A stretch of 64,000 nucleotides of DNA from an uncultured Geobacteraceae bacterium (GCA_903876875.1 CAIRBT010000102.1:1-64000), one strand, 5' to 3'. Numbered from the stretch's first letter, positions 40,867 to 45,866 are shown. Made by a program: numbers and translations. Notes: a model not told the origin generated them from the sequence alone.

Positions 40867-41277
40867 CTATTGAGCACCACAGGGCCCCTTCTTACACCCC
40901 CCCGTACCCATGCCACACCCACCCGTTGCCGGGCGAGATTCTCCATCGGATTTATCATCTAACAGGCCGCTTTTAGTGCGGGCGGCGGTAATTTTGGCCT
41001 GCAATGAACTTATTTCCGCCTGGAGTACGGCTATTTTTGCCCCATTGGGAACTGCCGTCAGATTTTCACGTTGCAACTCAAAGCGCCTGAGCATCATCTC
41101 CTGACGTAAATCCAGAGTGTCCTGCTGAAACTTCCGGAGCTGGGCGGAAGCTTCTCCCCCCTGCTGCAGACAATTTTCACAGCCACCACCCATTCCGTTA
41201 CCATGTCCCCCATAGGAAAAGGTTTGCAGTGCAACAACCAGACACACCCCGATCGTCAATATGAACTTTTTTTTCAT
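40867..41277 (-). CDS. ZraP/CpxP-like periplasmic protein
   Basis: 136 residues with signal peptide 1-22 (cut near SYG). The middle (about 45-105) is a long helical pair (RKFQQDTLDLRQEMMLRRFE, IAVLQAEISSLQAKI), as in the ZraP/CpxP/Spy group of periplasmic stress and metal-binding proteins. Both ends are rich in Gly, Cys and His (GNGMGGGCENC at the start; GGCGMGTGGCKKGPC at the end), so metal binding is likely. ATG 41275-41277 follows a GGAGG-like site. Confidence 0.75.
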   Translation of the reverse strand: MKKKFILTIGVCLVVALQTFSYGGHGNGMGGGCENCLQQGGEASAQLRKFQQDTLDLRQEMMLRRFELQRENLTAVPNGAKIAVLQAEISSLQAKITAARTKSGLLDDKSDGESRPATGGCGMGTGGCKKGPCGAQ

Positions 41278-41372
41278 GGAACATTCCTCCGGTATGACTC
41301 GTGACTAAACGCTCAGTTTCACCTGAAAATAGCATATGACACCCTGGTTTGCCAGAGCGTTTATCTGCCAAC

Positions 41373-41654
41373 TCAGACCACCGAAGCCGCAGCATCATTT
41401 TTTGAAATTGTGTATACCTTGTAACCAAGATAGCCAACTGCCGCCACCAGTGCAAGGGGAAGGAACCCCACACCAAACAGGGAACCACAGGCTGCCTTGC
41501 AGCCACCGGCAATGGCATGCATTCCCATGCCACCTCCCGCACCGCACCCGGCACCGTAACCACCACCGGCTCCGTACCCCATGCCTGCCCCCGCTCCGTT
41601 ACCAAATGCCACCGTTTTAATGCCTGCCACCATAGCCGGACATTGTGCTATCAT
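41373..41654 (-). CDS. Glycine-rich membrane protein (93 aa)
   Basis: ATG 41652-41654 (MIAQCPAMVAGIK) follows GGAG with 6-bp spacing, better than the upstream ATG. A glycine/alanine/methionine-rich tract (about 18-46, GYGAGGGYGAG) leads to one hydrophobic helix (about 58-77, FLPLALVAAVGYLGYKVY). Cysteines lie in both parts. No family is recognised; the Gly-rich tract next to a helix recalls magnetosome Mms6/MamD-type proteins only superficially. Confidence 0.6.
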   Translation of the reverse strand: MIAQCPAMVAGIKTVAFGNGAGAGMGYGAGGGYGAGCGAGGGMGMHAIAGGCKAACGSLFGVGFLPLALVAAVGYLGYKVYTISKNDAAASVV

Positions 41655-42045
41655 AATTAGCTCCTTCACCATATTAGCTTATTTATTACATCACTCCCAA
41701 AACATCTCAACTGCACTACTATAACCATTCAGACCACTCCAAGAGACGGTAATCTATTCCCAATAATGCACCACTTGGAATAATTGTACAATAGTGATTA
41801 AACAGCTGATTTATAGTTATAAAATATAGCTATAGCGCTGAACAGCTCCCCGCACGCGGCACTGCTTCTTAAGCCAGGTGAATGAGTATTGTTAACGCCC
41901 CTCACATTCCTGACAGACATAAATGATATCAAAGTTATTTTTCAGGCAATATTATCGTTGACACGCCAGAATAGATGTGTAAAATACACATCTATATACA
42001 CGAATAAACAATGGCTGTTAAAAACAGTACAAAGGAGTACCATCA
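41655..42045. other. AT-rich leader region before serpin 1 (391 bp)
   Basis: No supported gene. The right end holds the serpin promoter/operator (41958-41995). The remainder is AT-rich with a segment near 41840-41885 containing short dyads of unclear meaning. Confidence 0.6.
41958..41995 (+). promoter_or_regulatory. Serpin 1 promoter with overlapping palindrome
   Basis: TTGACA (41958-41963), 16-bp spacer and TAAAAT (41980-41985) form a promoter 60 bp before the serpin ATG. A palindrome with 11-bp arms (41971-41981 and 41985-41995) covers the -10. Its core TGTGTAAAATACACAT is repeated exactly at the DUF6502 promoter, so one repressor probably controls both. Confidence 0.75.
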
Positions 42046-43443
42046 ATGAAAAACAGGCATACGTCACCATTCAGATGGCACCTGCTGGTTATCTCAGCCT
42101 TCATTGCAACCATGGCCATCGTGGCTGGATGCGGCAATCTTCAGGGCACCGATGTCGGTTCGGGGGGAACCGGCGATGTTGGCTCGAACCAGACTCATAC
42201 CGATACCGGGTCGGGCGGCACAAGTGACAATGGCACTGCTCTGACCCTCCAGTCAACTATGAGTCGTGAAACAAATGTTTCAGCCAGTGGAAATGAAGTG
42301 GCAGCAGTAGTCCTGGGTAATACAACCTTTGCATTGAATGCCCTCCTCCGGAACCCGGCAGACACCAACACTTTATTTTCCCCTTACAGTATCACCACTG
42401 CGTTTGCCCTACTGGCACCCGGAACGGCGGGAACCACCCTTTACGGCATTGAACAGGCGCTATCCTTTCCGCTGGCACAGAACCGGTTCAATCCGACGTT
42501 GAATAAGCTTGAAGCTCTCCTTGCCGCGGAGACAAACGGTGCCATTATGTCAAACGGAGCATCGCTACCCAAGTTAAGTACGGCCAATGCCGTGTGGGCC
42601 CAGAAAGATTTAACCATTCTCACATCTTACCTTGACACCCTTGCGGTAAACTATGGCGCAGGTGTGCATATCGTTGACTTCGCACACGCTTCTGAAAACT
42701 CACGACTGGCCATAAACAGCTGGACATCTGAAGCCACACACGAGAAGATCGCTGATCTGATTCCGACAGGTGGAATTGATGCATTCACTCGCTTCGTATT
42801 GACAAATGCCATCTGGTTCAAATCCAACTGGTCCCTGCCCTTCCCGGTAGCTACAACCAGGGACCGTTCATTTACCAATCGGGATGCATCACAATCCACA
42901 GTCCCGTTCATGTCCCAGAAACTGGAGATATCTTATGTGCAGGCGTACGGTTGTCAAGCCGTTGACATTCCCTACGCCGGCAACAATATATCCATGTTGG
43001 TCATTATGCCCGAAGCCGGGACGCTCGATACGTTTATGGCCGCCCTGAAACCGGCAACCATCAGCACTATAACAGCGGGACTCTCTACCAACTATGTCGA
43101 TTTCGCACTGCCAAAATTCAGCTTAAGACAGAAGTCCGATTTACAAACCATGCTGCAATCACTTGGCATGACGGACGTATTTGATTTTGCCCGTGCCGAC
43201 CTGTCGGGAATAGATGGCATGCACGATCTGGTTGTGAAGAGAGTGTTTCATGAGGCGGCGATAAGCGTTGATGAGCAAGGGACAGAAGCTACTGCCGCAA
43301 CGGCGGTGATTGGCGGCGTGCATTCATCACTGATTACGCCCCCGGAACCGGTAGCAGTAACAATTGACCACCCGTTTCTCTTTCTGATCCGTGAGCGACA
43401 AACCGGTGTGGTACTCTTCATCGGAAAGGTGGTACAGCTGTAA
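42046..43443 (+). CDS. Serpin-family protease inhibitor, lipoprotein (serpin 1)
   Basis: 465 residues with a lipobox ending at Cys29 (IVAGC) and a Gly/Thr/Ser-rich linker (about 30-60). The serpin fold follows: NTLFSPYSITTAFALLAPGT, NAIWFKSNW, VDIPYAGNNISMLVIMP and C-terminal DHPFLFLIRERQTGVVLFIGKV. The hinge is VDEQGTEATAATAV (about 408-420), small residues as in inhibitory serpins. By count from the hinge, P1-P1' would be His-Ser; this is tentative. It would sit on a membrane surface and trap serine or cysteine proteases. The ribosome site AAAGGAG is strong. Confidence 0.92.
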   Translation: MKNRHTSPFRWHLLVISAFIATMAIVAGCGNLQGTDVGSGGTGDVGSNQTHTDTGSGGTSDNGTALTLQSTMSRETNVSASGNEVAAVVLGNTTFALNALLRNPADTNTLFSPYSITTAFALLAPGTAGTTLYGIEQALSFPLAQNRFNPTLNKLEALLAAETNGAIMSNGASLPKLSTANAVWAQKDLTILTSYLDTLAVNYGAGVHIVDFAHASENSRLAINSWTSEATHEKIADLIPTGGIDAFTRFVLTNAIWFKSNWSLPFPVATTRDRSFTNRDASQSTVPFMSQKLEISYVQAYGCQAVDIPYAGNNISMLVIMPEAGTLDTFMAALKPATISTITAGLSTNYVDFALPKFSLRQKSDLQTMLQSLGMTDVFDFARADLSGIDGMHDLVVKRVFHEAAISVDEQGTEATAATAVIGGVHSSLITPPEPVAVTIDHPFLFLIRERQTGVVLFIGKVVQL

Positions 43444-43562
43444 CACCGCACCACAGTAAAATTGAATTTCTGTAAGGCAGTAGCGGTAAATGGGGGGCAA
43501 CCGAGCCAGTGATAACGGCGCCCCCTCCGATCCATCCCCCACAGACAATCACAAAGTTGCCC

Positions 43563-43596
43563 TTGACAGTTTTTTTAAGTTGTGTAAAATACACAT
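43563..43596 (+). promoter_or_regulatory. DUF6502 gene promoter with shared palindrome
   Basis: TTGACA (43563-43568), 16-bp spacer and TAAAAT (43585-43590), with TGTGTAAAATACACAT (43581-43596) over the -10. This matches the serpin 1 promoter in every element, 31 bp before the DUF6502 start. Confidence 0.75.
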
Positions 43597-43626
43597 ACAA
43601 TAAAAATAATAAATGAAGGGTCTTAT

Positions 43627-44472
43627 ATGAAACGTTCAACGATCACTCCTGCAGCTCAAAGCATCAACACGACTTTTGACCGCGCAGATACATTACGTAA
43701 CGTAACATTAGAGCGTCTACTCCGCCCACTGGTACGCATTTGTCTGGCCGTCGGCGTTACTATCCCGTCAGTTGAAGAGGCCGTGAAACGGGCGTTCGTA
43801 CACGAAGCTGACGCGCTTGAACCCGATGCACCGGTATATGGCACAATCAGCCGAATTAGCACCGCAACCGGCCTTCAGCGTCGGGAGGTAACCCGCCTCA
43901 CCACAACTGAAAAGTCTGCGCAGTCGGCAAAACCTGCCCTTACATCAAAACTGTTTACCCGTTGGGTATCAAACCCCGCATTACGCGACGACTCCGGAAT
44001 GCCGCTCCCCCTAAAGCGGCAGGGACTGGCACCCAGCTTTGAGGCACTGGCCCAGTCAGTAACCCGGGACATCCATCCCCGAAGAATGCTCGATGAACTT
44101 CTTCGACTGGGGGTTGTCGAGCTTGATGAAGATACCGATCGGGTACGTCTCATAACAAACAACTATATTCCTTCCAGCGACTCTTCACAGATATATGCCC
44201 TGATGGGAGACAACGTGGGGGATCATCTGAGCGCGGCGGTTGACAACGTGCTGAACGATAACCACCGGCACCTGGAATTGGCCGTATTTGCCGATGAACT
44301 ATCCGTTGAGTCGGTCAATGCATTGCGACCACTGGTCACGGCTCACTGGAAGGCGTTGCGGGATGATATGGTGCGGCAAATTGAGGCACTTATCGAAGCG
44401 GATCGACTGGCCGGCCGCCCGCAGGATCAACGGGTACGTATCGGGATGTACACCTACGCAGACAAATCATAA
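43627..44472 (+). CDS. DUF6502 family protein (possible regulator)
   Basis: 281 residues, soluble. Conserved segments are LLRPLVRICLAVGVTIPSVEEA, GTISRISTATGLQRREVTRL (helix-turn-helix-like), VSNPALRDDSGMPLPLKRQG and TRDIHPRRMLDELLRLGVVEL. The family is uncharacterised; the ATGLQRREVTRL and DELLRLGVVEL stretches look like winged-helix elements, so DNA binding is plausible. ATG 43627 follows GAAGGG. It lies between two serpin genes; serpin 2 starts 53 bp downstream and is probably cotranscribed. Confidence 0.8.
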   Translation: MKRSTITPAAQSINTTFDRADTLRNVTLERLLRPLVRICLAVGVTIPSVEEAVKRAFVHEADALEPDAPVYGTISRISTATGLQRREVTRLTTTEKSAQSAKPALTSKLFTRWVSNPALRDDSGMPLPLKRQGLAPSFEALAQSVTRDIHPRRMLDELLRLGVVELDEDTDRVRLITNNYIPSSDSSQIYALMGDNVGDHLSAAVDNVLNDNHRHLELAVFADELSVESVNALRPLVTAHWKALRDDMVRQIEALIEADRLAGRPQDQRVRIGMYTYADKS

Positions 44473-44525
44473 ATCATTGTAGTGACGGAGTAAGTAAGAG
44501 TACTTATTAAGACAGGAGATTCCCC

Positions 44526-45866
44526 ATGAAAAAGACAGCATCTTTAATGAACAACGTGTACTGGCTGGTGATCATGGCGGTAATTGCAGCCATGACGTCC
44601 CTGACCGGCTGCAGCAATCTCCAGAGTCCCGATGTCGGATCGGGTGGCACCGGTGAAATTGGCAACGCCACGATTCTGCGGTCGAGCGTCGCCCGTGAAA
44701 CAAATGTGCTGGCCAGCAGTGACGAAGTGTCAGCGGTCGTCCAGGGCAATACGGCCCTTGCCGTGAATATCCTCCAGAAGCAGCCTGACACCAACAGCGT
44801 TTTCTCCCCCTACAGTGTCACTATAGCGTTTGCCCTGTTGGCACCCGGAACGGTTGGAAGCACCTATAGCGGCATTGAGCAGGCACTCTCCTTTCCCCTG
44901 CCACAGAACCGGCTCAATCCGACCCTGAATAAAATTGATGCCATGCTTGCCGGCAAGACAACCGGTGCTCTGCTCCTTAACACGGTTCCATCGCCACAAT
45001 TAAGCACGGCCAACGCAATCTGGGCTCAGAAGGGGCTTTCCATTCTCCCCGCCTACCTTGACACCCTGGCCATAAATTATGGTGCAGGAGTCCATCTGGT
45101 AGACTTTGCACTCGCCCTGGAAACGTCACGACAGGCCATAAACAGCTGGGCGGCGGAAGCCACGCACAATAAGATTACTGACCTGATTCCGACGGGGGGT
45201 ATTGACGCGTCTACACGGTTGGTATTGTCCAATGCCGTCTGGTTTAAATCCAACTGGTTCTCGCCATTCGCCACAACTGCAACCAGTAACCGGTCATTTA
45301 CCAATGGGGACACATCGGTTTCCACCATCCCGTTTATGTCCCAGAAGTTAGATGTACCGTACCTGCATGCTTACGGTTGCCAAGCGGTTGACATTCCCTA
45401 TGCCGGCGACAATGTATCTCTGCTGGTCATTATGCCCGAACCAGGCACCTTCAACGCGTTTCTTACCGCCCTGAAACCGGCAACAATAAATACCATAACA
45501 GCAGGGCTCACCACCAGCTACGTCGATTTTGCCCTGCCAAAGTTCAACTTCAAGCAGACGTCGGACTTACGGGCCATGCTGCAATCTCTCGGCATGGTTG
45601 ACGCTTTCGATGTAAGCCGTGCCGACCTATCGGGGATAGATGGCATGCATGATCTGGTCGTGGGGAATGTGTTTCACCAGGCAGTGATAAGTGTTGATGA
45701 GCAGGGGACTGAAGCAGCAGCAGCAACAGCAATCGGCATTTCGGCCACATCACTGCCGACGCACCCGGAGCCGACAATAGTAACAATCAATAATCCCTTT
45801 ATTTTCATGATCCGTGACCGTCAAACAGGCTTGATACTCTTTCTTGGGAAGGTAGTGAATCTATAA
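44526..45866 (+). CDS. Serpin-family protease inhibitor, lipoprotein (serpin 2)
   Basis: 446 residues, a paralogue of serpin 1, with the same plan: lipobox with Cys29 (LTGC), NLQSPDVGSGGTGEIGN linker, FSPYSVTIAFALLAPGT, NAVWFKSNW, DIPYAGDNVSLLVIMPEPGT and NNPFIFMIRDRQTGLILFLGKV. The hinge VDEQGTEAAAATAI (about 390-402) is of inhibitory type. The exposed loop after it (IGISATSLPTH) differs from serpin 1, so target proteases should differ; by count P1-P1' is Thr-Ser. ATG 44526 has an AGGAG site. Confidence 0.92.
   Translation: MKKTASLMNNVYWLVIMAVIAAMTSLTGCSNLQSPDVGSGGTGEIGNATILRSSVARETNVLASSDEVSAVVQGNTALAVNILQKQPDTNSVFSPYSVTIAFALLAPGTVGSTYSGIEQALSFPLPQNRLNPTLNKIDAMLAGKTTGALLLNTVPSPQLSTANAIWAQKGLSILPAYLDTLAINYGAGVHLVDFALALETSRQAINSWAAEATHNKITDLIPTGGIDASTRLVLSNAVWFKSNWFSPFATTATSNRSFTNGDTSVSTIPFMSQKLDVPYLHAYGCQAVDIPYAGDNVSLLVIMPEPGTFNAFLTALKPATINTITAGLTTSYVDFALPKFNFKQTSDLRAMLQSLGMVDAFDVSRADLSGIDGMHDLVVGNVFHQAVISVDEQGTEAAAATAIGISATSLPTHPEPTIVTINNPFIFMIRDRQTGLILFLGKVVNL

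Follow-up and report, generated by a model that had tools for sequence, protein, structure and literature searches.

The DUF6502 gene that lies between two serpin genes in an uncultured Geobacteraceae bacterium (GCA_903876875.1 CAIRBT010000102.1:1-64000) probably encodes a local autorepressor of a lipoprotein module with swappable cargo, which is loaded here with two diverged serpins of the inhibitory type. The 64,000-nt stretch that was analyzed is referred to as the window, and coordinates are counted within it. In the mechanism that we infer, DUF6502 is a helix-turn-helix (HTH) transcription factor that would bind the palindrome (A)ATGTGYA-N3-TRCACAT(T). Because this site lies over the -10 both in the promoter of DUF6502 itself and in the promoters of its targets, binding would shut these promoters off. 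The targets would be lipoprotein genes encoding a signal peptide, a lipid-anchor Cys, a GVGTGGTG-type stretch, and an exchangeable cargo; in the source genome, these would comprise two duplicated serpins with diverged loops and an unlinked lipoprotein (C105). A signal would release the repressor, and two anchored, possibly surface-exposed suicide inhibitors would then be made, which would capture, at the cell envelope, serine-type (possibly cysteine-type) proteases that differ in specificity. The support for this proposal was read at the sequence level and consists of the genes, the anchors, the palindromes and their promoter position, the phylogenetic co-occurrence, and the variety of cargo.

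The window holds intact ORFs of 465, 281, and 446 aa, which correspond to serpin1, DUF6502, and serpin2 (Table 1), and serpin2 starts 53 bp past the end of DUF6502. The serpins scored 323.7 and 319.4 bits against Pfam Serpin (PF00079; cut-off 27), with a full-length domain in both (profile positions 7–369 and 12–369 of 370), and the DUF6502 gene scored 81.9 bits against PF20112 (cut-off 27). In both serpins the lipobox Cys, read from the sequence, is residue 29 (VAGC29 and LTGC29), located behind a hydrophobic stretch, and lipid anchoring to the membrane is predicted. DVGSGGTG follows the lipid Cys in each protein, placing GSGGTG at residue 38, and the hinges GTEATAATA and GTEAAAATA are both of the small-residue kind (like GTEAAAAT). 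An earlier note on this DNA had described two lipoprotein serpins with a conserved Gly-rich linker, inhibitory-type hinges, and a DUF6502 gene between them, and the ORFs, Pfam matches, and lipoboxes agree with that description. Small Gly-rich ORFs are also present between HU and serpin1 (40867–41672, - strand), and the 98-aa Gly-rich ORF recurs at the corresponding position in the closest relative (genome G108).

Table 1. Features of the serpin and DUF6502 region of the window, with the Betaproteobacteria loci that carry a distant site.
Feature	Position	Strand	Parts or basis
Promoter-like element of serpin1	41958–41991	+	TTGACA 41958–41963, 16 bp, TAAAAT 41980–41985
Perfect 17-bp palindrome ATGTGTAAAATACACAT	41975–41991	+	Over -10 of serpin1 promoter
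Serpin1, 465 aa, predicted lipoprotein	42046–43443	+	ORF, Pfam Serpin, lipobox
Serpin1, Cys29 codon	42130–42132
Serpin1, VGSGGTG	42154–42174
Serpin1, reactive loop (hinge onward)	43279–43338
Promoter-like element of DUF6502-serpin2	43563–43595	+	TTGACA 43563–43568, 16 bp, TAAAAT 43585–43590
Palindrome TGTGTAAAATACACA	43581–43595	+	Over -10 of DUF6502-serpin2 promoter
DUF6502, 281 aa, putative HTH autorepressor	43627–44472	+	ORF, Pfam
Most HTH-like DUF6502 segment TISRISTATGLQRREVTRL	43843–43899		Residues 73–91
Second winged-helix-like DUF6502 segment			Residues 105–175
Serpin2, 446 aa, predicted lipoprotein	44526–45866	+	ORF, Pfam Serpin, lipobox
Serpin2, Cys29 codon	44610–44612
Serpin2, VGSGGTG	44634–44654
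Serpin2, reactive loop (hinge onward)	45705–45761
Betaproteobacteria distant-site loci	1.4–1.9 kb upstream		L151, L157, L165, L170, L179, L185, L189, L199, L200, L207

The two serpins, the only ones found in the source genome, are 66% identical overall. As the earlier note had claimed, their loops differ after the hinge: alignment of the paralogues gave 70.6% identity in the core vs. 30% in the post-hinge loop (3/10; Fisher p = 0.011, small sample). The G108 serpin is 61.4 and 66.1% identical to the window serpins, which are closer to each other (70.6%), and this suggests that the pair arose by duplication within its own lineage. A hinge of this type is compatible with inhibition, and the two serpins would accordingly be expected to act at the envelope on proteases that differ in specificity. 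The source genome encodes a single S8 subtilase (C65:34206), which is a candidate endogenous target. The serpins could alternatively be structural or binding lipoproteins that retain the serpin fold but do not inhibit, as the other cargos described below are not inhibitors. We consider this improbable, given that all five lipoprotein serpins of DUF6502 loci keep the small-residue hinge GTEAAAATA while the loop varies. Prediction of the window serpins as lipid-anchored and inhibitory-type, with diverged loops, is supported. Membrane-anchored prokaryotic serpins have already been recognized (PMC8233489). Inhibitory bacterial serpins such as miropin of Tannerella forsythia resemble the window pair in fold, inhibitory-type hinge, and export signal, whereas the window serpins form a tandem pair under a common operator-like element and carry, after the lipid Cys, a GVGTGGTG-type motif that also occurs in non-serpin lipoproteins.

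Only two 11/12 sigma-70-type promoters (TTGACA-16-TAAAAT) were identified in the region, one before serpin1 and one before DUF6502. Exactly two perfect palindromes are present in the vicinity, and each covers the -10 of one of these promoters. Serpin1 and DUF6502 share a promoter/operator-like element in which (AA)ATGTGCA-N3-TGCACAT(TT) overlies the -10 in a promoter of the form TTGACA-16-YAAAAT. Each -10 sits under the palindrome TGTGTAAAATACACA, which is lengthened to a 17-bp perfect palindrome ahead of serpin1. DUF6502's own promoter thereby contains a palindromic operator-like site. The earlier note had overlooked this element. Among the Geobacterales loci with a good -35, TTGACA starts 18 nt ahead of the palindrome in 14 of 16, and this fixed spacing places the palindrome always over the -10 in Geobacterales loci, which is the layout that would be expected of a repressor site. 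Sequence does not reveal the direction of regulation, so that DUF6502 could instead be an activator or a dual regulator. This seems unlikely to us, as a site over the -10 at a fixed position would normally block polymerase, and the sites of activators are usually found next to the -35 or farther upstream.

When one mismatch was allowed, the source genome contained one further perfect copy (C105:1050) and otherwise weaker copies only. The further copy lies where the promoter of a lipoprotein gene (C105:1050–2111, L128) with a CarboxypepD_reg-like domain would be expected, and the encoded protein shares 61% identity with the lipoprotein whose gene separates DUF6502 from the serpin in the G108 operon. 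The site together with this identity points to a target that left its regulator and kept the site. The regulon predicted from sites in the source genome comprises serpin1, DUF6502-serpin2, and the C105 lipoprotein. The second DUF6502 gene of this genome (C74:2426–5037, L127) had no element within 320 bp; it is followed by a DUF4382-type lipoprotein gene with GVGTGGTG.

The element was found upstream of 24 of the 28 DUF6502 genes of the order, with the consensus ATGTGCAAAATGCACAT. The exact form TGTGYAAAATRCACA occurred at 18 sites in 141 genomes, 16 of them at DUF6502 or serpin1 and the remaining two at a terminator hairpin and inside a hydrogenase gene, while a reversed-pattern control yielded 1 site. 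Genomes with a TGTGYAAAATRCACA site and genomes with DUF6502 were strongly associated (p about 6e-13). A longer symmetric form, AATGTGNANNNTNCACATT, occurred at 10 sites (9 at DUF6502 and 1 beside a DUF6502 remnant), with none found in DUF6502-less genomes. At G121:C1:1581823 (L217), the operator precedes what looks like a degraded copy of DUF6502, beyond which lies a lipoprotein gene.

Named genomes, scanned with an alignment of closer DUF6502 members, yielded 80 loci from Geobacteraceae/Desulfuromonadales and from Betaproteobacteria, the latter including Zoogloea, Polaromonas, Ramlibacter, Rubrivivax, and Caldimonas. Perfect arms were present 54 times directly upstream and 10 times 1.38–1.89 kb upstream, a count that tolerates only Y/R, such that some Geobacterales sites with A/T at the arm position score as misses; these are visible in the upstream-element survey and the site alignment. 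The 10 distant sites were confined to loci that lack a near one, and no perfect arms were found elsewhere within the 80 loci. In the Betaproteobacteria the arms are conserved and the center is variable, and the symmetry extends into the flanks (AAATGTGC...GCACATTT). The palindrome arms precede DUF6502 or its upstream lipoprotein gene in most relatives, across two phyla, and the palindrome is essentially absent from genomes without DUF6502. Some DUF6502 genes without a site, and the lack of a significant fold match for the protein, would suit a palindrome that belongs to an unrelated global regulator, with DUF6502 as a co-transcribed cytoplasmic protein of another role. We give this little credence, because many sites would be expected in each genome for such a regulator and the observed site is essentially confined to DUF6502 genomes and loci, and because the putative HTH of DUF6502 is conserved.

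Within the DUF6502 protein, S75, R76, G82, R85, and E87 are invariant in 34 members, and R76, G82, R85, and E87 in 73. An AlphaFold2 model built from the 73-sequence alignment (pLDDT 80.4, pTM 0.55) placed helices at 73–81 and 85–97, forming a helix-turn-helix around R76, G82, R85, and E87, and this pair has the most conserved turn. Beyond it, the model shows another winged-helix-like segment, whose beta wing spans 164–175, and then long helices, which could dimerize. Foldseek searches of the PDB with two AlphaFold2 models gave no significant match, none reaching E 0.001, and the weak matches were mostly winged-helix regulators or winged-helix DNA-binding domains. Pfam HTH families matched only below threshold, and a profile search against solved structures returned nothing credible. 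The HTH assignment is therefore plausible but tentative. No signal peptide was seen in the family, which by appearance is cytoplasmic. PF20112 carries no assigned function and the literature searched did not mention DUF6502; the window gene is a member of this family, and its role as a regulator is a proposal of the present analysis. In having a putative HTH, a palindrome over the -10, and a linked target, DUF6502 resembles autoregulated winged-helix/HTH repressors of the MarR/GntR type, although it matches these families significantly neither in fold nor in sequence.

The earlier note had interpreted the locus as a dedicated antiprotease system, with DUF6502 as the regulator or partner of the two serpins. 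A regulator is likely, considering the shared operator-like palindrome and the putative HTH, but a serpin-specific partner was not borne out. Across the 141 genomes of the order, DUF6502 was present in 22 and serpins in 16, and their co-occurrence at the genome level was not significant (p = 0.13). The two genes were side by side at only 4 loci. As most DUF6502 genes adjoin other GGTG-motif lipoproteins, the finding that the earlier note had named as a refutation, DUF6502 unlinked to serpins elsewhere, has largely been made. Three genomes (G108, G109, and G065) do have a lipoprotein serpin in the operon, 3' of DUF6502, which speaks for a dedicated two-serpin system. Most serpins of the order, however, have no adjoining DUF6502, and lipoproteins with unrelated cargo adjoin most DUF6502 genes. 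We therefore regard a dedicated system as very improbable, and it is mostly refuted by the neighborhoods. DUF6502 and serpin as a specific pair was likewise rejected, since DUF6502 neighborhoods mostly hold other GGTG-motif lipoproteins.

The recurrent neighbor of DUF6502 is a lipoprotein gene directly 3' of it, often with an ATGA overlap. In the mature protein encoded by this gene, the N-terminal Cys leads into a Gly-rich stretch, which is followed by G-V-G-(T/S)-G-G-T-G or a sequence close to it. Among the 80 named loci from Geobacterales and Betaproteobacteria, 79 were assessable, and DUF6502 adjoins a GGTG-motif lipoprotein in 77 of these (69 by script and 8 by eye). In a pattern search of the window family, every in-frame motif lipoprotein was at a DUF6502 locus. 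GVGTGGTG lipoproteins independent of DUF6502 were rejected, as the other family matches were out of frame or not lipoproteins. The codons of the motif differ freely in their third position, which indicates that selection acts on the protein; GVGTGGTG as a DNA-level element, such as a recombination site, is not favored for the same reason.

The cargo behind the motif was a serpin, a beta-propeller (PF09826), DUF4382 (PF14321), DUF5666 (PF18914), or an unnamed VADGYL-type domain. Mapping the cargo labels onto the DUF6502 tree, in which few branches are strong, required a minimum of 8 changes where 4 would suffice, and this suggests repeated cargo exchange at DUF6502 loci. Serpins appear as one interchangeable cargo of a wider system spanning two phyla. 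Ten Betaproteobacteria loci carry the site at a distance, and the five of them that were inspected showed the order operator, DUF5666 lipoprotein, DUF6502, and DUF5666 lipoprotein. The flanked lipoprotein-DUF6502-lipoprotein layout therefore recurs outside the window, with DUF5666 as cargo instead of a serpin.

The lipoprotein export signal of Bacteroidetes is charged, K-(D/E)2 or Q-A-(D/E)2, and its sorting role has been tested (PMC5080379). Like this signal, the GVGTGGTG stretch is short, conserved, located just behind the lipid Cys, and attached to unrelated domains; unlike it, the stretch is uncharged, Gly-rich, and known here from sequence alone. The motif could be a sorting or display signal for a class of envelope lipoproteins with interchangeable cargo in at least two phyla, with DUF6502 as the founding member of a new regulator family that controls production of this class through the ATGTGCA-N3-TGCACAT operator, an extension that is conceivable but on balance doubtful. 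The DUF6502 operator, the module of DUF6502 and GGTG lipoproteins, and the motif itself are undescribed in the searchable literature. The proposed autorepressor role gives the DUF6502 family a testable function and a candidate binding site, and it would tie DUF5666, DUF4382, and other lipoproteins together through one regulator and one N-terminal motif. Bacterial serpins, whose roles are mostly obscure, would be assigned to an envelope setting that is under regulation, with a specific predicted regulon.

Distant DUF6502 members with high Pfam scores (L005, L006, L007, and L070–L081) precede Gly-rich GG(T)G lipoproteins in most cases checked, mostly DUF5666. The palindrome is not present at the DUF5666-paired L005–L007, and these may therefore use another site. 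At L134, L140, and L141, a second VADGYL-type lipoprotein gene without the GGTG motif was observed, often after the first.
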